Below, one piece after another: positions 2,937 through 32,372 of a DNA stretch of 37,709 bases; the first letter of the stretch is position 1, and every line of letters begins with the position of its first letter. The position numbers and the translations under genes were made by a program. Below the pieces are notes generated by a model that saw nothing but the letters and a program-made list of their open reading frames with translations, had not been told where the DNA came from and searched no databases. Source of the DNA: a virus. The stretch spans positions 1 to 37,709 of IMG/VR virus record IMGVR_UViG_3300038470_000052. One strand, written 5' to 3'.

Positions 2937-3185
2937 CTAATTATTTATATTTATTTTTCGGTATTTTACTTTCTTGGCACGCCTTTTGCCCTTTGGGAAT
3001 CCAACCGGGTTAATGAGTTTCCTTAAAATTCTCAATCCTCGTCTGGTTATGATGTACTTATTACCAAGCAAATATATATCATCATTCTGACCAACTTCCT
3101 GGCAATATTTTTGGCATTTAATTTTTAATGTCTGCCGATGCTGATTGAGTTCAGCTGCCGCCATTGTCAAATCGTAAATTTCCAT
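2937..3185 (-). CDS. Small DNA-binding regulator, paralogue of the divergent gene at 3272 (switch protein A)
   Basis: The protein has 82 residues. Its N-terminus looks like a helix-turn-helix of MerR/excisionase type (DLTMAAAELNQHRQTLKIKC), followed by a wing-like region (YLLGNKYIITRRGLRILRK), a PVG-x-P motif and a very basic tail. The divergent 78-residue protein has the same order: AAE-x-L..R-x-T, then YL-x3-Y, GL-x2-LR, I-x-PVG-x-P and R. ATG 3185 has no ribosome binding site and lies 6 bases after a perfect -10, so the mRNA is probably leaderless, as for lambda cI from PRM. I infer an autoregulated repressor; the family is not one I can name. Confidence 0.75.
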   Translation of the reverse strand: MEIYDLTMAAAELNQHRQTLKIKCQKYCQEVGQNDDIYLLGNKYIITRRGLRILRKLINPVGFPKGKRRAKKVKYRKININN

Positions 3186-3191
3186 ATTTAT

Positions 3192-3220
3192 AATATATCT
3201 TAATAGTACGATTATGTCAA
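3192..3220 (-). promoter_or_regulatory. Minus-strand promoter of switch gene A (leaderless)
   Basis: The -35 is TTGACA (3220-3215), followed by a 17-bp spacer and a -10 of TATATT (3197-3192). The start codon begins 6 bases later, so the transcript should start at or next to the A of ATG. The nearest operator lies 8 bases upstream of this -35, a position that would allow activation rather than repression. Confidence 0.8.
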
Positions 3221-3271: not shown

Positions 3272-3508
3272 ATGGAAAAACTTTATGGAAAATATGAGGC
3301 TGCGGAAATCCTTAAATGCAGACCCGAAACAGTTTTAAAAAAACTACAATTATTATATAAAAATTCCGATGGTAACATCCAGTACCTACGCTGCGGTTAC
3401 GTGCTCAACTCTATCGGATTATCAATGCTCCGGGCTGCCATTAAGCCTGTAGGTAAGCCACGCAAAAATCGTGCCACATATGACATTTTGATGCAATTAA
3501 AAAAATAA
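3272..3508 (+). CDS. Small DNA-binding regulator, paralogue of the gene at 2937 (switch protein B)
   Basis: The protein has 78 residues. An N-terminal helix-turn-helix (KYEAAEILKCRPETVLKKLQ) is followed by a YL-x2-GYVLN segment, GLSMLRAAIKPVGKPRKNR and a short basic tail. It aligns along most of its length with the divergent 82-residue protein, which points to an ancient duplication and the two arms of a genetic switch. The start is fixed by the leaderless promoter just upstream. It probably binds the 13-bp operator, perhaps in competition with protein A as Cro does with CI. The role is inferred from arrangement, not from a known family. Confidence 0.75.
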   Translation: MEKLYGKYEAAEILKCRPETVLKKLQLLYKNSDGNIQYLRCGYVLNSIGLSMLRAAIKPVGKPRKNRATYDILMQLKK

Positions 3509-12343: not shown

Positions 12344-14493
12344 GCTATTATCTCTTCACCTAACCTCATTCTTTTTACTATGTAATTTGCTAACCCGTCC
12401 AGGGTTTCGTTTGATTCACCCATTATCAATGGGTTGTAAATGTTTAATGTTATATTATATGTACTGCCTCCTGTAATTTGACCACCTGCCCCACCTCCAC
12501 CCTCACCGCCGGTTTCAATCGCGGCCTGGCCTGCGGCGTTAAGCTGTGTCATGCTGATTTGCGTTAACATATTGTCACCGACTCGTGGCACTGGCACTTT
12601 TGCCAGCCCTGCCCCGAACCAGTTTGCGATTTCTATAATGACATTCATTATAGAAGTTATCACAATCGCTATAATGTTAACTATTCCTATGATTGTATTT
12701 GCCAGAGGAACTATTGCCCAATTATAAAGCAATAAGAATCCTTCGGCTAACACTTTGATTATCGGAGCCAATAAATTAAAAATAGGAATCAATATTGCCC
12801 CGAGTGTTTGACCCAATATGACTATTATACCAACTAATGGCTGTAAGGCGCTATTTATAGCACCCCTGGCAAAATCAGCCGCGTATTTTAATACGGAGGT
12901 TAATGGACTAAGTACAATCGAGAACGCCTCAACACTGTTTATTGCGGATATTATCGCGTCATTAAATTGATCTGTGCTCGGCGCAAACCCTGCGAATAAA
13001 TCTTCAAGGAATTTGTTATCCTCTTTTTTTGGTTCGGGGGCAGCCGTCTGCGGAAACTGCCTGGCGAAAAGATCGATAGCATCCGCTGTGGTCTCTATCT
13101 GCTCATAGATAGTTTTTAACACTTCAATAGCTGGGGCGGCAACATCTGTTTCCGCGGCCTCCATTAGCTCATTCTTTTCTGATGTCGCCCCTCCGTCGCT
13201 CTCTCCCTGTTTGTTCATTATTTTTGCAATACTGGTTTTCGCGTTATCGATTTCTTTTTTGAACAATCCCACAAGTGACGTGCTGGCAATACCGAGTTCT
13301 TTGACATATCCATTAAATGTAGAGATAAACTTCCCGGAAACCTCGGCCACAGATTCTCCCAATGCAACACTGGCCTGGTCTACGCTCTGTTTTAAGGCTA
13401 TATATTTTTTATCCTTCTGGATATCGGGAACATCAATGGGGATTCCTAATATTTTTTGTTCAGATAGCCATTTTGAGAAACCTTCCCCTATTGCCATCAT
13501 GAGATTGCCGACTATGATTGTGAGTAACGCACCGCCTGATTTAAATAGGTTTGTCAGCATTACCGGGATCATTTCTATCGATGCTCTGAATGAGGCTAAC
13601 AACAAATTGCCTAAAATCTTAAAAGCTTCTGCAAATGTGGCGGGTTCAAAAGCTTTTCTCATGATTGCCTGAACAGCTGTAAAAACAATAGAGAATAATT
13701 CCGGGATATTTTCGATTGCGTTTCTTATCTGTAGCCGGTTCTCTACAAAGAACTTATTGATTGCATCAATCGCTGGCTTTGCAAACTCTGCCAGCTGTTC
13801 TCCAAACAGTTCTTTTATATCGCCAATATTTTCTTTTAATTTGTTGAGCGAGCCGGTGAATGTGTTCCCCATTGAGATAGCAACACCCCCGAATTTGCTT
13901 TCCAATTCCGCGAGTATAACTTTTTGAGCACTGGCAACATCATTAACAGCCATGAATTGCGCAATCATTTTTTCTGTCTGGTCAGATAACTGGATATTCG
14001 CCCTGCGCAATGCTCCGGCTGCCGTCGTAGGATCATTAAGCGCCCGCCCCACCTGGGACGCTGCTCCCTCCAGTGAGCCGAAAACTTGCTTCATGTTTAG
14101 CGCCGTCATTGTGACGTGCGGGAAAATATCTCGGCCTATATTTGTAAATGGCAATAACAATGCATTGGCTCCTGTGATTGCATCTGCGGAAATCCCTGTT
14201 AAATCCTGGAGTCCCTGTGCGAATCCTTCCAGCTCTTGTGTAGATGAATTGATGACGTTTCCGGTAGATTTCAAAATAGCAGAAAGTTTTGTACTTTGAT
14301 CTAAAGCGCCCGAATATTCATTAACGCAATCCACGATCCCGTCTTTGAGAAACCCCCAGGCTTTAGTTACTGTGTCCATTATCGCTTTAACATCTACAAA
14401 AGATTTAACCAGGCTGTCGGCGCCACGCACCGCGCTATCAGTACCGGCCTTCGTCCTGTCTTCGGATGTTATAACGTATTTAACCTCTGCCAT
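12340..14493 (-). CDS. Tape measure protein
   Basis: The protein has 717 residues. The N-terminal half is helical with an Ala/Gly/Thr-rich pattern (SLVKSFVDVKAIMDTVTKAW) and has the ALNDPTTAAGALRRANIQLS element seen in many tape measures. The C-terminal half has a long run of hydrophobic helices between about 560 and 645 (PLVGIIVILGQTLGAILIPI and following). It ends in a Gly-rich segment and a short beta tail. By the usual 1.5 angstrom per residue rule it suggests a tail near 100 nm. It follows the frameshifting chaperone pair, its standard place. Confidence 0.9.
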   Translation of the reverse strand: MAEVKYVITSEDRTKAGTDSAVRGADSLVKSFVDVKAIMDTVTKAWGFLKDGIVDCVNEYSGALDQSTKLSAILKSTGNVINSSTQELEGFAQGLQDLTGISADAITGANALLLPFTNIGRDIFPHVTMTALNMKQVFGSLEGAASQVGRALNDPTTAAGALRRANIQLSDQTEKMIAQFMAVNDVASAQKVILAELESKFGGVAISMGNTFTGSLNKLKENIGDIKELFGEQLAEFAKPAIDAINKFFVENRLQIRNAIENIPELFSIVFTAVQAIMRKAFEPATFAEAFKILGNLLLASFRASIEMIPVMLTNLFKSGGALLTIIVGNLMMAIGEGFSKWLSEQKILGIPIDVPDIQKDKKYIALKQSVDQASVALGESVAEVSGKFISTFNGYVKELGIASTSLVGLFKKEIDNAKTSIAKIMNKQGESDGGATSEKNELMEAAETDVAAPAIEVLKTIYEQIETTADAIDLFARQFPQTAAPEPKKEDNKFLEDLFAGFAPSTDQFNDAIISAINSVEAFSIVLSPLTSVLKYAADFARGAINSALQPLVGIIVILGQTLGAILIPIFNLLAPIIKVLAEGFLLLYNWAIVPLANTIIGIVNIIAIVITSIMNVIIEIANWFGAGLAKVPVPRVGDNMLTQISMTQLNAAGQAAIETGGEGGGGAGGQITGGSTYNITLNIYNPLIMGESNETLDGLANYIVKRMRLGEEIIA

Positions 14494-15102: not shown

Positions 15103-16008
15103 TTACTCCTTTCCGTAGGGGAGGCCGATATAATCAAGCACCTCTCCTAATTTTAATTTGTTTACGCAATACTCCCACAAATTTCTATGAGTTTTTTTAA
15201 GCATTTCGAATCTATTAACTTTTTGCATATGTAACCCAAACATGCAGAAAATACAACCCGTTCTCTCGATACCTGTATCATAAATGCTGCAATATTTTAT
15301 ATTTTTTGATCTGATATATTGCCAAATGTCCTCATTAGTCCAAAATGCAATAGGCCAGGAAACAGGTGGTGATTTCCCGAACGCATTGCAACCATGTTTT
15401 TGATATTCAATGCTCCGTCCATTAGAATCTTTTGACATTATTCCGATAATTCCATGTCTTCCTGTTTCTTTTTCGTAGATTCGCAATGGGCTTTTTTTAA
15501 GATACTTACAGCATTTGTCGCTGATTTTAAATGGTGCACTTATCAAAAATTTCCATTTTTCGCTGATTTTAAAACGTTTATATTTTTCCGTTCCCTCCCA
15601 TCGTATTTTTTTTAACGCCTCACTTTTTGTGTTTCGATACTGCTCGATATAAGATGCCTGTTCTTTGCTGATTATTGGATAGCCATATTTATCAATAATT
15701 TCCTTAAAAGTATATTTTGGTTTAATCCATATAACATTGTCAATTGTTTTAACAAATTCTTTTATTTCAGGATATTCCAGGCCTGTATCAACAAACACGG
15801 CAGGAATATGCGGGTAAATTTCGCGCACAAGATCAAGTAAAACAGTCGAATCCTTTCCGCCGGAAAACGAAATATATACATCGCCATTATAATGTTCATA
15901 CCAATCTCTTATCCGCTGTTGTGACAAAATTATTTTCGCATCGAGTGGCAATCCTTGTCTTATTCTTACAGTATCGGGGGTTATTTTTGCAGTAAATTTC
16001 CTTTGCAT
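15103..16008 (-). CDS. PAPS reductase / DndC-like sulfur-transfer enzyme within the tail operon
   Basis: The protein has 301 residues. The PP-loop SGGKDS is at 49-54, followed by the VFVDTGLEYPEI strand typical of PAPS reductases and DndC-type ATP pyrophosphatases. Cysteines at KCCKYLKKSP and in RTGCIFCMFGLH, a motif common in phage members, may hold an Fe-S cluster. The enzyme probably activates or transfers sulfur (sulfate reduction, or modification of nucleic acid); no DndB/D/E genes are present. It sits between the tail tube and chaperone genes, in the same direction and tightly spaced (its stop is next to the chaperone's GTG), like a cargo gene inserted into the late operon. Confidence 0.85.
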   Translation of the reverse strand: MQRKFTAKITPDTVRIRQGLPLDAKIILSQQRIRDWYEHYNGDVYISFSGGKDSTVLLDLVREIYPHIPAVFVDTGLEYPEIKEFVKTIDNVIWIKPKYTFKEIIDKYGYPIISKEQASYIEQYRNTKSEALKKIRWEGTEKYKRFKISEKWKFLISAPFKISDKCCKYLKKSPLRIYEKETGRHGIIGIMSKDSNGRSIEYQKHGCNAFGKSPPVSWPIAFWTNEDIWQYIRSKNIKYCSIYDTGIERTGCIFCMFGLHMQKVNRFEMLKKTHRNLWEYCVNKLKLGEVLDYIGLPYGKE

Positions 16009-25769: not shown

Positions 25770-25925
25770 TCTTTTTTTTTCGGAGATAGAACAGGTAACA
25801 TCTGTTATCTCGCTATTATGTATCTGGATTTTAAAATCAACAGCTCCGTATTTAATCCCGTTTATTTTATCAGTATTTGATTTTATGCTATCCAGGATTG
25901 CGTTTGTCATTGCCAGCGCTATCAC
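25758..25925 (-). CDS. Small hypothetical protein
   Basis: The protein has 55 residues, starting at GTG 25925 in a GTGA overlap with the preceding stop, with GAGGAG upstream. The longer frame from 25973 would run through the neighbouring gene. It reads as a helix (TNAILDSIKSNTDKING) plus strands (AVDFKIQIHNSEITDVTCSI). It is the last gene of its unit, and its end contains the -35 of the late promoter. Unknown function. Confidence 0.6.
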   Translation of the reverse strand: MIALAMTNAILDSIKSNTDKINGIKYGAVDFKIQIHNSEITDVTCSISEKKRLTK

Positions 25926-27379
25926 TTTTTGAGCTCCTCGATAAACGGGCTTTTGCCTCTGCCATCCAGCCACAATAAATGCTCGGAATGTTTTTTGATA
26001 TCGACACCAGCAGGATTGTTTTTGTATAGCCAGGCGATGGCACCTTCTGCCCCTCCCTGGATTTCCACAAACCTCTTGCCATAATGCCCCGGGCTTCCTG
26101 ATCTAATCATGTATGTGTTATTTTTAGCCAGGTATGGCTCTATCCGTTCGATTAGTTCCCGCTCTGTAGGTATTGCTGCCGTGGGTTTTTTCTCATGTTG
26201 TTTGTGAGATATACGCTCCATTGACAGATAAGGGATCTCCGTAATGATTGACTTTTTGGAGCAGTTAATAACAGGGGCGTTGCTTGCTAATATCTGCATG
26301 AGTACCGACCGTTTATAAAATAGCTGGATGCGTTCGGTTTTCACCCCATTATCAGCCGTCACAATTTGCCGTTCGTCCGGTAATGGGTAATGCTTATCTA
26401 CAAATTGCATTTTTTCTGCGGAAAACTCAATATCAGTAAACCTTTCGGCCGACAAATCGCAGCCAACGAGGTAAATCGGACTATAGCCCATGATCTGCGC
26501 AATCGCTATCTGTGCGGATATCGAGCATGAAAACATTGGGATTTCTGTTTTTATAAAATCATAAGCTGCATCGATAGGCGCGGTTAAAGCTTTGTTTGGA
26601 GTAGTGCAACGGAAAAAATATTTATCAACAGGGATTGTGAGTATTTCAGGTAATACTCCCGGGTGTGTTATGATTGAGTTTTTAAATAAATTGCTGGTTG
26701 CCCTATAATCGAACTGTGCTTTTTTTGTCCGTGCGTCTAACACAAGCGTATGTATTATTGCGCTATCTGTCGTATGATAATTTATAATATTAAAATGACT
26801 CGCTGTGCAGATAACCGGGCGTATCCAGCTGCCAAGATATGGGATAAAATCATTTAATGATGATCCAGACCCTATAACAACACAAGGGCAGTTTGCACTT
26901 CCTGGCTCTATATTGCCTTTCTTTTCAACAGCAAAATAATCAATTATTGTTTTATAATTTTTGTAACTATTCACCACCTCGCTCGATATGATAAAATCTT
27001 CGCTCGCCTTATTGTATCCTGCTGTTGATTCAAAGCTATTTCCTTCATTCGGTTTAATTTGCTCCTGCAATATTCCGGTCTCAAATGCCATGATGTATAG
27101 CTGATCATATGTCAAACCGTTTGTGAATTTGTTAGACGCTACAAAGCAATAGCTGCCTGATTTGTCTGGCACATAATGAGGTGTATATCCTATAGGATGA
27201 TTCCTGTTTTGAGTGCTGATCTTATACGGGTCTTTTAAAACAAATGCAGGATAATTGGCGATAGGTGCTATCAATTTCTTAAACTCTCCAATAGGAATCC
27301 TGTTGTTTTCTATTGGCATTCCCTCAAAAAGCTTCAATTCTCCCTCTTCGATTTTTAAAAAGTTTTTTTCAAATTCCAT
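25922..27379 (-). CDS. DUF115 / MptE-like (Maf-type) protein
   Basis: The protein has 485 residues. The central domain has a nucleotide-sugar or pterin type start (CPCVVIGSGSSLNDFIPYLG), then SIITHPGVLP, and a late SISAQIAIAQIMGYSPIYLV with GCDLSAE. This is the motif order of the DUF115 family (6-hydroxymethylpterin diphosphokinase MptE-like and flagellin Maf glycosyltransferases). In a phage it may glycosylate a virion or host surface component, or make a cofactor; neither can be settled here. The N-terminal 150 and C-terminal 90 residues are specific. It is coupled on both sides to small genes. Confidence 0.75.
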   Translation of the reverse strand: MEFEKNFLKIEEGELKLFEGMPIENNRIPIGEFKKLIAPIANYPAFVLKDPYKISTQNRNHPIGYTPHYVPDKSGSYCFVASNKFTNGLTYDQLYIMAFETGILQEQIKPNEGNSFESTAGYNKASEDFIISSEVVNSYKNYKTIIDYFAVEKKGNIEPGSANCPCVVIGSGSSLNDFIPYLGSWIRPVICTASHFNIINYHTTDSAIIHTLVLDARTKKAQFDYRATSNLFKNSIITHPGVLPEILTIPVDKYFFRCTTPNKALTAPIDAAYDFIKTEIPMFSCSISAQIAIAQIMGYSPIYLVGCDLSAERFTDIEFSAEKMQFVDKHYPLPDERQIVTADNGVKTERIQLFYKRSVLMQILASNAPVINCSKKSIITEIPYLSMERISHKQHEKKPTAAIPTERELIERIEPYLAKNNTYMIRSGSPGHYGKRFVEIQGGAEGAIAWLYKNNPAGVDIKKHSEHLLWLDGRGKSPFIEELKK

Positions 27380-28219: not shown

Positions 28220-28490
28220 AATCCACCTCCTCGATTAATACCCACCCATGTATCACATAACCGGCTACAAATGGAATCCCTGAAAATAAAAACATTAACC
28301 AGATCATGGCATCACGGTCAAAATATCTGACTGCTATTGGAACATGCTCAAGTTGGTTATAATTGTTAGGCTCTGCTTTTGAAAATAGAACGAAAACTAT
28401 TAAACCCCAATTGATTACAAAGATTACCAGAAATAGAATTGCCGATGTAACCCAGTTTACCCAGTATGGTATTTTAATTCTTTTTTTCAT
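28215..28490 (-). CDS. Small membrane protein with two transmembrane segments
   Basis: The protein has 91 residues with GGGGAG upstream. A basic N-terminus (MKKRIKIPYWVNW) is followed by a transmembrane helix (SAILFLVIFVINWGLIVFVL), a polar loop, and a second (MIWLMFLFSGIPFVAGYVI). It is the first gene of the minus-strand unit driven by the promoter at 28509-28537. Size and topology allow a holin or an exclusion-type membrane protein. The stop overlaps the next gene's initiation region. Confidence 0.7.
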   Translation of the reverse strand: MKKRIKIPYWVNWVTSAILFLVIFVINWGLIVFVLFSKAEPNNYNQLEHVPIAVRYFDRDAMIWLMFLFSGIPFVAGYVIHGWVLIEEVDY

Positions 28491-28508
28491 AATTAATCTC
28501 CCCAGCCT

Positions 28509-28537
28509 ATATTAACACAGTGCGGGAACAATATCAA
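28509..28537 (-). promoter_or_regulatory. Minus-strand promoter of the membrane/Cys-rich/DUF115 unit
   Basis: The -35 is TTGATA (28537-28532), followed by a 17-bp spacer and a -10 of TAATAT (28514-28509). The transcript should start near 28502, about 12 bases before the ATG. No copy of the 13-bp operator is present. Confidence 0.65.
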
Positions 28538-28914
28538 TAAAAAACAAAGGAATTTTTACTAAAAAAACTATCAAATTTGATACTTTACCCGAAGTCAATA
28601 GAGTCTATAAGCGCAATTAGTATAATGCTTTTCTATATTAATATATATATACTATATAAATATATATAATATAAAGAGATATATTATTACTCCTATTGAT
28701 CTAATTGGCCAGGCGTAAAGTGATACGAATTTACCCTATTAGCATTACATTGGGAATATGTACCTCATGATTTTATTTATGGGTATTTTTTAGGACTATA
28801 TATCTATATAGGCGCATCCGCAAATTTAACGTATGTCCAATAAGTACAATAGATTCAATAATCTAATTCTTTTTGCCATAAACAATTATTTTATCATGCG
28901 TCAAAGCATATTTT
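28538..28914. other. Long AT-rich intergenic region, candidate replication origin
   Basis: This 377-base stretch between divergent units has no convincing gene. About 28630-28690 is almost pure A/T. Two related stretches occur: TGATACTTTACCC near 28578 and TGATACGAATTTACCC near 28720. ATCTAATT is also repeated (near 28700 and 28860). Its place next to the HTH and primase-helicase genes suits an origin or control region, but there is no clear iteron array or DnaA box. Confidence 0.35.
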
Positions 28915-28918
28915 TTGA

Positions 28919-28931
28919 CATTACCAATTGA
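28919..28931 (+). promoter_or_regulatory. 13-bp operator, copy 4 (one mismatch)
   Basis: CATTACCAATTGA matches TAYTACCRWTTGA at 12 of 13 positions and overlaps the -35 of the next promoter, the same geometry as the central operator at 3228-3240. This links the replication operon to the switch 12 kb away on the circular map. Confidence 0.55.
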
Positions 28932-28956
28932 CATTAAATGCAAAACAAGATATTAT
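28928..28956 (+). promoter_or_regulatory. Plus-strand promoter of the replication operon
   Basis: The -35 is TTGACA (28928-28933), followed by a 17-bp spacer and a -10 of TATTAT (28951-28956). The start is near 28963, leaving only about 10 bases before ATG 28973, with AGGAG at 28962-28966. A second TTGACA at 28915 has no matching -10. Confidence 0.75.
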
Positions 28957-28972
28957 GCCTCAGGAGTAAAAA

Positions 28973-29266
28973 ATGGATGATTTAATCGTTAAAGTGACAA
29001 AACAAAAGGTTATGGACACGTACTATAACCACAATTTACGTGATACTGCCAGGCTACTGGGAATCACGGTCAGGGCGCTTTATGAGTTAATGGAGCGGTA
29101 TGGTATCAGCAAAAAGGGGCGGGGGAAGCAATGGAAAAATAAACGCCGGGTGCAAATAGTTATGGAAGACCCGGAGAATTCCTTCATCCCGAAGGCGTAT
29201 CTGAAGGACGGCCGGGTGATCCCATTAAAAAAAGAAAAAATGTACTGCTACATCAAAGATAAATAA
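28973..29266 (+). CDS. Fis-type helix-turn-helix DNA-binding protein
   Basis: The protein has 97 residues. A clear HTH of the Fis/NtrC C-terminal type lies at about 16-43 (YNHNLRDTARLLGITVRALY, then ELMERYGI). A basic linker follows (KKGRGKQWKNKRR), then a C-terminal part with strands (RVQIVMEDPENSF, YCYIKDK). It is the first gene behind the operator-controlled promoter and may act on the origin-like region upstream or on later promoters. Sequence specificity is unknown. Confidence 0.8.
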   Translation: MDDLIVKVTKQKVMDTYYNHNLRDTARLLGITVRALYELMERYGISKKGRGKQWKNKRRVQIVMEDPENSFIPKAYLKDGRVIPLKKEKMYCYIKDK

Positions 29267-29274
29267 AAAACCTC

Positions 29275-29303
29275 TTGACAGGATTTTGTTTTTATGTTAT
29301 TTT
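29275..29303 (+). promoter_or_regulatory. Plus-strand promoter of the structured RNA
   Basis: The -35 is TTGACA (29275-29280), followed by an exact 17-bp spacer and a -10 of TATTTT (29298-29303). The predicted first base is about 29310, where the first hairpin of the RNA begins. There is no 13-bp operator here. Confidence 0.75.
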
Positions 29304-29309
29304 GGTAAA

Positions 29310-29446
29310 CGCAGCTGACAACTGCGGGTTTTTGACATAGCCGACACCAATAATAAAAAGGGTTTTACTATCCCTCGTTATTCTACGGGTGTCGGGAATA
29401 GCGGCCGGCGTCACCGGCAGGGGGATAGTAAAGCCCTTTGTTTTTT
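29310..29446 (+). ncRNA. Candidate small structured RNA with interleaved helices and terminator
   Basis: The roughly 137-base transcript would contain, in order: a 5' hairpin CGCAG-CTGACAA-CTGCG (29310-29326); arm A1 CCGACACC (29341-29348); arm B1 (29357-29374); arm A2 GGTGTCGG (29388-29395), which pairs with A1; a hairpin GCCGG-CGTCA-CCGGC (29404-29418); and arm B2 (29422-29439), which pairs with B1 over 18 bp with one G-U pair. A G and six U residues follow (29440-29446). The order A1-B1-A2-B2 makes a pseudoknot or two rival folds. B1-B2 plus the U-tract is an intrinsic terminator. The next gene starts 18 bases later, so this could be a free RNA or an attenuator leader. Confidence 0.7.
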
Positions 29447-29463
29447 CGGTGGTGATTGTGAGT

Positions 29464-30012
29464 ATGAGAAATATAGAATTATTGGATCTATCCATAGCGC
29501 ATTATTCAAGGATGCGCGAATTTGTCTTAAGGCTTTCGGAAAATGAGATAAAAGAATTATATATTTATCCTGTAGAGTTTTTGTACAAGCTTTATAAAAA
29601 AATGTATTCTCAGATAGGGGAAGGTTGGCACGGGAAGGATTGCTCATTATGCAATAATTATTTTAAAGAAGTTCGGGAACAACATGAGGTAAAAATAAAA
29701 TGCACTAAGTGCCCGCTTGACGAATTAGGTTACAATTGTAAGGAAAAAAATTCTGTTTGGAATAAACTGAACGAATCAAGAGATATAGACAAATGGCTTT
29801 CCAATGCGGAAAGGATGATAGAATTATTATGTTTTGCAAAAAAAGAATATGAAGAAAAAGCCAAACAAAAAGAAAAATATCTTTTGAAAAAAAATATTAA
29901 AAATATAAAAGCCGTCATAACAACCTTATCTGATACAAAAAAATCTATGAAATCGCTACTAAAATCCCTAAAGGAAAACCACAAATGCCAAGGAAAACCA
30001 ATCAGCAACTAA
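29464..30012 (+). CDS. Cys-cluster protein upstream of the primase
   Basis: The protein has 182 residues from ATG 29464; an earlier frame from 29389 would run through the structured RNA and is rejected. The site before the ATG is weak (GTGAG). The middle holds DCSLCNNYF...KCTKCPLDELGYNC, the phage-type C-x2-C...C-x2-CP...C cluster. The last 60 residues are Lys-rich and coiled-coil-like (KKNIKNIKAVITTLSDTKKS). The gene overlaps the primase-helicase start by 28 bases. Expression may depend on read-through of the terminator just upstream. Confidence 0.75.
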   Translation: MRNIELLDLSIAHYSRMREFVLRLSENEIKELYIYPVEFLYKLYKKMYSQIGEGWHGKDCSLCNNYFKEVREQHEVKIKCTKCPLDELGYNCKEKNSVWNKLNESRDIDKWLSNAERMIELLCFAKKEYEEKAKQKEKYLLKKNIKNIKAVITTLSDTKKSMKSLLKSLKENHKCQGKPISN

Positions 30013-32372
30013 CATTACAAACACTGCCAACAGATGAAGATTTTGAGAAATTCAACAAGATGATCCGTTCGGAAAGTGCGGTCGAAAAGTTCGGATACGT
30101 CACTAAAATATGGGCTTTTAAAAACATCTTCAAATGTTGCGAATACGTTGAGACAGAATTTGAGCACCACGAAAAAGGTACACATAGAGTTCAGTGGTTT
30201 CTGTCTATGGAACAGGGGTGGCGCATGGGATACCCCCCGTTTGCTCCAAAAGATAAGCTCTGCCTTTATAACGAGGATATGCTATCCGATGAAATAGACA
30301 ACATCCTGTTAGTCGAAGGATTGGATGGCCTGAACCCAACGCCTGAAAACATAGGTGATATATCCAGGCACTTTGTAACAAGCGCAGGTAATACATACCT
30401 GATAATGAGTTACGGAGAGCATAGCCAGGCAGACCGTAGACGCTGGATGTCTCTAACAGAAAGGAAAAGCACCAATATTGTTATATGGCCGAGGCTGTAC
30501 CGGGATGTTAACCGTGACGGTAGCGAAAAGCAGAAAACTGCACAACCCGGATTTAAAACCGCGCTAGATATCAAAGAGAAAATACTGCCCTGGGCGAAGA
30601 TCCTGGATGTATACGAATGGGATTCAAACAACGAGCTGCCGGAGGGGTTTGGGCTTGGCGCCTGCCTGGCAGACGGGTATAGTATCGAGAAGTTCCTTCA
30701 GGTATGTCCCTATTTCGATGCGAAAAAAGACAGAGAAAAACGGCTTGCGCATTCAATTGGATTCGCTCCATTCAAATTTTTAGGCTATGATCAAAAAAAC
30801 TTTTATTTCCTAACAGGCCGGTCATCTTCGTTTTTTAACCTACCCCGGAAAGGAATTGCGAATACCGCATTATTTAACCTGGCACCGCTGGATTGGTGGA
30901 TTGATCACTTCCCCGGGGGCAGGAGCGTAGACTGGAATTCTGCGATTGACTGGCTGATAAATGAAAGCATATCGCGCGGATATGTGGCAAATAACAAATT
31001 CAGGCGCGCCGGATTTTGGAAGGATGGCAGCAATTTTTATTGCAATAACGGCCGGGAAATAATAACCAACAAAGGCGAGAAGATCCCCTACTCGAAAATC
31101 GAATCCGAATATTGTTACATCCAGTCATCAATAACAATAGATAAAATAACAGGCGACCAGGCCACGGACAAACAGGGGGAAGACCTGGTCAGGCTATTCG
31201 AGGCGCAAAACTTTAAAACCAGGCTCCAGGCATGGGAGGCGTGTGGCTGGGCGATCATGGCTCCGTTTTACTCGATGCTGACCAGGAGGCCGCTTATGTG
31301 GATAAAAGGCGCGAGTATGTCCGGAAAATCCTGGTTAATTGAAAACGTAATGGCTCCATTAGCCTGTGAGCTGGCATTTTCCGGAACTCCCAAAACAACA
31401 GATTCCCAGTTTAAACATCAACTCGGCACTGACAACCGGGTTGCGTATTTTGACGAAATGGAAACCAGGTCGAAAAACAACAGGCAAAACATGGAGGCAA
31501 TCGAAAGTAAAATCCAAATGGCGCGGGATAGCACATCAAACAGCTCAAATAAAATCAGCCACACCGGAAAGGACGGGGAGCCGGTCACATTTGAAATCAA
31601 TTCCGGGATCTGCTTTTCTTCGGTCATTCCATACCTCGATAGTGCCCCCCTGGAAAGCCGCTTTATTTGCCCGGAATTGTCAGCGGTATTGGATGAAAAA
31701 ACCAGGAAAGAAAAGCAATCTGGAGTATTTAAAATCCTGCAAACTGGGCTCATGGATGATCCTAAAATATTCATGCGCCGGTTATTTGCAAACATCGACC
31801 AGATAATCAAAAACATCGAATGGCTGAAAAAAGAAATTGCGTCAATCCTGGAAGACCAGCGAAAGGCGGATAATTACGCGCCAATATTCGCCGGGATTTT
31901 CGCACTGACTAATACCGGAGAAATCACCCCGGAGTTTTTTTCTTTGATTGGCGAAATGCTGGCAGATATAAAAGAGAGAACAATCGAAACGGATGAAGAG
32001 GCGCTTATCAACATTATCCTGGAATCCAATGTAGAGGCGGACGGGGGAAAAAGAAAATTGATCTCCGAATTAGTTCATGAAGTACTCAACAATGAGGATG
32101 CCTACGCCTCGAACATGGCATTAGGCAGGTGCGGGCTGACCTATGACCAGCAAACTGATAGCTTGGCAATTGCGACTAACAATGGATTCCTGCGTGGTAT
32201 TTTTGCCGGGTCTCCGTATGGAGTTAAATATGGGGAGGTGCTTATCAGGCACCCGGGGGTAGACAGGAGGTCGGGGGTAACGCAAAATGTTTTCTTCGCC
32301 GGATCAAGGAAAAAATGTGTAGTATTCAGGCGGCAGATGTTTCTAAAAATATTAGACGGAGGGGGAGTATGA
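29985..32372 (+). CDS. Primase-helicase (toprim plus SF3/AAA-like helicase)
   Basis: The protein has 795 residues. A toprim-like region includes NILLVEGLDG (E111) and NIVIWPRLYRDVNRDG (about 165-179), where the usual WPD-x-D motif is stretched. A linker domain follows. The ATPase has Walker A KGASMSGKS (441-449), Walker B VAYFDEME (486-493) and a later sensor-like NSGICFSSVIPYL. The arrangement fits a bifunctional primase-helicase that starts and unwinds at the phage origin. No phage DNA polymerase is seen, so host polymerase is probably recruited. The stop overlaps the next start (ATGA). Confidence 0.85.
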   Translation: MPRKTNQQLTLQTLPTDEDFEKFNKMIRSESAVEKFGYVTKIWAFKNIFKCCEYVETEFEHHEKGTHRVQWFLSMEQGWRMGYPPFAPKDKLCLYNEDMLSDEIDNILLVEGLDGLNPTPENIGDISRHFVTSAGNTYLIMSYGEHSQADRRRWMSLTERKSTNIVIWPRLYRDVNRDGSEKQKTAQPGFKTALDIKEKILPWAKILDVYEWDSNNELPEGFGLGACLADGYSIEKFLQVCPYFDAKKDREKRLAHSIGFAPFKFLGYDQKNFYFLTGRSSSFFNLPRKGIANTALFNLAPLDWWIDHFPGGRSVDWNSAIDWLINESISRGYVANNKFRRAGFWKDGSNFYCNNGREIITNKGEKIPYSKIESEYCYIQSSITIDKITGDQATDKQGEDLVRLFEAQNFKTRLQAWEACGWAIMAPFYSMLTRRPLMWIKGASMSGKSWLIENVMAPLACELAFSGTPKTTDSQFKHQLGTDNRVAYFDEMETRSKNNRQNMEAIESKIQMARDSTSNSSNKISHTGKDGEPVTFEINSGICFSSVIPYLDSAPLESRFICPELSAVLDEKTRKEKQSGVFKILQTGLMDDPKIFMRRLFANIDQIIKNIEWLKKEIASILEDQRKADNYAPIFAGIFALTNTGEITPEFFSLIGEMLADIKERTIETDEEALINIILESNVEADGGKRKLISELVHEVLNNEDAYASNMALGRCGLTYDQQTDSLAIATNNGFLRGIFAGSPYGVKYGEVLIRHPGVDRRSGVTQNVFFAGSRKKCVVFRRQMFLKILDGGGV

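Follow-up and report, generated by a model that had tools for sequence, protein, structure and literature searches.

The leaders of the replication genes of plasmids pT181 and pIP501 are described, in the passages drawn on here, as adopting alternative folds that decide between termination and continued transcription (PMC3753616, PMC4981023). Among phage elements, the part of the literature that treats P4 reports that its replication genes are held back by premature termination, with the CI RNA pairing with complementary sequences of the same transcript, and the same account gives IsrK of prophage Gifsy-1 a plan of promoter, short RNA, leaky terminator and mRNA (PMC4825925). The putRNA of HK022, described in brief as about 70 nt with two stem-loops, acts on polymerase and renders it termination-resistant (PMC9378689). 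Here we analyze a 138-nt leader, reaching from its predicted start to the end of a U-tract, in the DNA of a tailed phage (IMG/VR virus record IMGVR_UViG_3300038470_000052); "the window" denotes the whole stretch of 37,709 bases.

The phage and the parts of its leader

The minus strand of the phage carries genes for the large terminase, portal, head and tail, and RecE/RecT-like and helicase genes lie at its left end. An early plus-strand block from 28973 contains helix-turn-helix (HTH), Cys-cluster, primase, Cro/CI-like, DUF5131 and DNA methylase genes, and no integrase was found among the scanned ORFs of the window. Judged by its sequence, this is a phage without a close relative, with terminase identity of 43–53% in the best loci and primase identity of ~30%; tblastn with the primase gave 20 phage records. 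The HTH protein has a weak match to PHROG 1303 (E = 0.00088), and its AlphaFold model shows three helices within residues 10–43 (block pLDDT about 80). The Cys-cluster protein, scanned as a 207-aa ORF, matched no Pfam or PHROGs family and had no NCBIfam match near a cut-off; its predicted structure was left out because the quality was too poor. Elsewhere, a PAPS-reductase-like gene (15103–16008, minus strand) sits within the tail gene cluster, and a 485-aa protein encoded near the terminase gene (25922–27379, minus strand) has a sub-threshold MptE-like match. An extended intergenic region (28490–28973), rich in A and T and containing TATA runs, separates the divergent late and early blocks and might harbor an origin.

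Table 1. Features of the leader and its flanking genes (positions in the window)
Feature	Position	Strand	Remark
Promoter of 97-aa HTH gene, TTGACA-17-TATTAT	28928..28956	+	second best of window
Small DNA-binding protein (HTH), 97 aa	28973..29266	+	gene directly upstream of leader
Leader promoter: TTGACA, 17 nt, extended TG, TATTTT	29275..29303	+	near-consensus
TTGACA of leader promoter	29275-29280	+	
TATTTT of leader promoter	29298-29303	+	
5′ hairpin H	29310..29326	+	arms 29310-29314/29322-29326
A1, antiterminator strand	29341..29348	+	
B1, terminator 5′ arm	29357..29374	+	
Hairpin C, terminator state	29376..29403	+	A2 sits in 12-nt loop
A2, partner of A1	29388..29395	+	
Hairpin D	29404..29418	+	
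B2, terminator 3′ arm	29422..29439	+	
U6 tract, intrinsic terminator	29441..29446	+	
Shine-Dalgarno-like GGTGGTGAT	29448..29456	+	adjoins U-tract
Cys-cluster protein, 184 aa, first operon gene	29458..30012	+	GTG 29458 or ATG 29464
Primase gene	29985..32372	+	PHROG 35358 DNA primase, E 7e-41

A preliminary description of this DNA had proposed a near-consensus promoter with a 5′ hairpin at the predicted first base, and both were recovered (Table 1), the first base, 29310, opening hairpin H. When both strands are scored with a simple sigma-70 model based on textbook base frequencies, the leader promoter is the fourth best of the whole window, and the three that score higher belong to the upstream HTH gene and to a divergent small-gene pair near 3200. 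The two small proteins of that pair (2937–3185, minus strand; 3272–3508, plus strand) look like paralogues by eye; the pair owns the first and third best promoters, and its mRNAs may be leaderless, because the predicted start sites fall on start codons. Within the leader, a weak promoter at 29332 (rank 116, with a poor –10 box) would start inside B1, so that its transcripts would escape the terminator. Of the minus-strand promoters that face the leader none is good, the best ranking 395th (start 29474), and a weak one may yet be there.

The coordinates and pairing also bear out the order A1-B1-A2-B2 that the same description had given, with helices of 8 and 18 bp. Helix A (A1:A2) consists of eight Watson-Crick pairs (–13.8 kcal/mol), helix B (B1:B2) of 18 pairs including one G-U, and an 8-nt linker lies between A1 and B1. 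Helix B ends in the U6 tract and is, as had been claimed, an intrinsic terminator; a stem of at least 16 bp with a T-tract arose in none of 300 shuffled windows. The structure of the leader is beyond chance. The minimum free energy of 29305–29450 is –61 kcal/mol (z = –5.8), a value reached by 0 of 200 shuffles, and the leader has the lowest folding z of 941 windows (940 sampled plus-strand 138-nt windows and the target, 30 shuffles per window). Helix A alone is weaker evidence, as 43 of 2000 shuffles match its energy. Further 138-nt windows of very low z, at 28961–29098, 13721–13858 and 30281–30418, are located within genes or where genes begin.

The U-tract abuts GGTGGTGAT, which we take to be a match to the anti-Shine-Dalgarno sequence, and no good promoter lies between the U-tract and the Cys-cluster gene; the Cys-cluster and primase genes therefore need readthrough, which may come from either the leader promoter or the HTH-gene promoter.

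Predicted folds of the growing transcript

When successive prefixes were folded (Turner 2004, 37 °C), those with 3′ ends from 29396 to 29426 had A1:A2 in their best fold, and those ending at 29428 or later had B1:B2 together with hairpins C and D. The same change was obtained with Turner 1999 parameters, and at 25 °C it fell at 29426. The A1:A2 fold encloses a self-paired B1, with AAUAA (29352–29356) pairing with UUAUU (29378–29382). A1:A2 and B1:B2 are thus predicted to form two successive, mutually exclusive nested folds.

Shuffling sets the antiterminator fold only moderately apart from chance. When everything except H, B1 and D was shuffled, 20 of 2000 shuffles equalled the fold of the pre-terminator RNA, and in a less favorable test the entire pre-terminator prefix had z = –2.0, with 32 of 1000 shuffles as good. 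The hairpin 29341–29395 was matched by 0 of 1000 shuffles, with bounds picked after the helix was seen; a z as low as that of the A hairpin occurred in 22 of 3766 sampled 55-nt windows, which counts against an attenuator.

In the finished leader the terminator fold surpasses the antiterminator fold in stability by a wide margin (–59 vs. –38.5), so the A hairpin would have to act kinetically or be stabilized. The path from antiterminator to terminator was estimated at 15.6 kcal/mol with nested moves only, a barrier that may be too high because B2 could nucleate on the free B1 loop. RNA polymerase hides the last dozen or so bases of its transcript, and the terminator would therefore already be favored during synthesis of the U-tract; readthrough would accordingly need a slow switch or a stabilizer.

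A second, translational layer of control is possible, although with four base pairs it is only a lead. A GGTG in the GGTGGTGAT stretch is able to pair with CACC of A1, and an A1 not paired with A2 could in this way hide the ribosome-binding site (GGUG in the RNA). Nested folding of the readthrough RNA left the Shine-Dalgarno stretch unpaired with a mean probability of 0.14, which became 0.50 when A1 and A2 were barred from other pairs.

Proposed attenuation and competing explanations

We read the leader as a transcription attenuator of the early replication operon, in which an antiterminator competes with the terminator, and consider this probable, if only just, since prefix folding turns the interleaved arms into two folds that follow and exclude each other, the way attenuators do. 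The preliminary description had offered either a stable RNA or an attenuator; the latter is the better supported, by the competing prefix folds and by a terminator that abuts the Cys-cluster/primase operon, and it is the most likely reading of the locus, which we do not take to be mainly a pseudoknotted noncoding RNA. As in attenuators generally, promoter, leader and intrinsic terminator precede the gene, and an alternative fold, known by prediction only, excludes the terminator. Leader-peptide attenuators carry a short translated ORF; here 29309–29457 contains no ATG, its only starts being GTG and TTG, and there is thus no obvious leader peptide.

Under the attenuator reading, the strong promoter starts a leader that ends in an intrinsic terminator beside the Cys-cluster gene's ribosome-binding site. 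In prefix folding, the A1:A2 hairpin closes around B1 as antiterminator upon emergence of A2 from the polymerase, and B1:B2 becomes the better fold after some seven bases of B2 have emerged. We infer that an A hairpin that is held would allow readthrough and one that is opened or never formed would lead to termination, with a ligand, protein, RNA or the transcription rate setting the outcome. Should this be true, an uncultured phage controls its replication genes by RNA folding, without a known RNA family. In a distinctly unlikely self-antisense version, terminated RNA would capture A1 of nascent leaders and so feed back on the primase. Terminated copies, with A1 unpaired and A2 displayed in the 12-nt loop of hairpin C, could therefore catch a nascent A1; a captured A1 would leave no A hairpin and force termination. 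The phage would thereby sense its own copy number and restrain its primase, one RNA being both target and inhibitor, a compact replication feedback made of a single RNA.

A serious though unlikely alternative to attenuation is a plain promoter with a leaky intrinsic terminator, which would end the HTH transcript and let a fixed share reach the primase operon, the A1-A2 match being due to chance; the locus would then be ordinary. The frequency with which shuffles reach helix A alone favors this explanation, as does the U-tract that follows the 18-bp stem on the minus strand too. Terminators beside ORF starts are, moreover, not rare in phage DNA (46 of 164 lie at most 45 nt from one), which counts against an attenuator. 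The conditional shuffles that hold H, B1 and D fixed speak against a chance match, and of the 15 long-stem terminators listed just one exceeds this one's 43-nt structured loop in length, and it is the same stem on the other strand. It is unlikely, too, that the leader is a stable small RNA predicted to act in trans, with readthrough giving an mRNA. Its own strong promoter, the hairpin at its predicted 5′ end and its 3′ terminator would suit such an RNA, and the plan is that given for IsrK in the portion of the literature cited (PMC4825925), but the search for a target was negative: the window contains no exact partner of GGGTGTCGG, A1 is one of three one-mismatch sites there, and the number of near matches is that expected by chance.

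The pseudoknotted RNA of the preliminary description, in which helices A and B would form simultaneously, is possible, but a simple sum does not favor it: release of A1 and A2 would cost 11.7 kcal/mol, with –13.8 kcal/mol gained from helix A, before any pseudoknot penalty. A folded RNA with both helices at once, predicted to have a structural or protein-binding role, is in keeping with the z of the leader, with A2 in the loop of C and with the A1–B1 linker, yet we found no homologues to show covariation and regard it as very unlikely. The DNA at the start site (29311–29325, GCAGCTGACAACTGC) is a near-palindrome and a possible operator; when as many as 3 mismatches are allowed, it has 9 matches in the window, where 2.67 are expected (0 of 100 shuffles). 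These near matches would fit an operator, or a repeat belonging to a replication origin, next to the primase gene; such a DNA-level element is extremely unlikely to account for the locus, as a promoter before the 18-bp repeat and T-tracts after it in both directions are terminator-like. A lambda boxB-like reading of hairpin H was considered and dropped (boxA was sought by eye only), and for phi29 pRNA there was no Rfam match, the phage having an ordinary large terminase.

Searches for relatives and comparison with known systems

Blastn with the RNA gave five phage records, each covering at most 20% of the query (best E = 0.06) and none a homologue, and no match in plasmids; over 127 loci, the best hit besides the window's own copy had E = 0.21. 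In viral_contigs the exact B1/B2 arm pattern was absent, and the A1/A2 pattern gave 43 oriented matches in 41 stretches, none of which combines a long B-type stem with a T-tract; L175, one of these stretches, has an 8-bp stem and a short T-run and was judged chance. A covariance model built from the leader alone, run over 171 sources (L001 and L128–L134, which repeat other loci, and L179–L187 being set aside), gave E < 1 only in the window, at the leader itself and at the same stem on the other strand, with the next best E at 1.8. As single queries against viral_contigs, the 97-aa, primase and 184-aa proteins found no relatives, and neither did the primase against genome_contigs, as single query or alignment. 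Phages, plasmids, IMG/VR and the retrieved loci thus yielded no homologue of the leader that could show covariation, which counts against an attenuator. The window has no Rfam match at gathering score, in agreement with the earlier statement that the fold is not a known riboswitch; the best sub-threshold match is a microRNA hairpin (27.7 vs. 67 bits). Rfam includes isrK and C4 models, and by sequence and structure the leader was accordingly not assigned to IsrK, P4 CI or P1 C4 RNA.

Among 81 primase loci, some with a short upstream region, five terminator-like stems were seen, three of them beside an ORF start (window, L038 and L070). In L038, a distant primase relative, an 18-bp terminator with T7 (3285–3410) stands directly before the gene preceding primase, and the A1-B1-A2-B2 order is shared via a 7-bp match. 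Such a stem was not seen at the same spot in eight relatives of L038 (L180–L187), and L038 was for this reason left out as support. G006, the closest relative by primase, reads as a circle, the start of L007 recurring at the end of L135. It has TTGACA-17-TATAAT directly ahead of its primase and lacks a leader of this kind, which counts against an attenuator.

Our search, which covered a library of open-access papers, showed neither an attenuator nor a pseudoknotted terminator of this type in a phage; as an attenuator, the leader is a further example of a familiar mechanism, with no relatives found in the collections searched. Compared by description, it resembles the HK022 putRNA in that an RNA structure that would affect termination follows directly on an early phage promoter, and differs, as far as the account of putRNA goes, in ending in its own terminator (PMC9378689). 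With IsrK it shares the order of promoter, short RNA with terminator and readthrough mRNA, with genes just behind; in the passage concerned the downstream genes are different ones, and action in trans is here a proposal (PMC4825925). Early termination before replication genes and pairing within the transcript recall P4, whose CI is described there as a processed RNA with two pairing sites, whereas the phage leader has one A1-A2 pair and a strong terminator (PMC4825925). In pT181 and pIP501, an antisense RNA from the opposite leader strand triggers termination, according to the sections cited, unlike the phage leader, which faces no good minus-strand promoter. Those are plasmids, likened here to a phage by their described plan and not by sequence, and in that plan a small regulator gene, a promoter, an attenuator leader and a replication gene follow one another in the same order as here (PMC3753616, PMC4981023).
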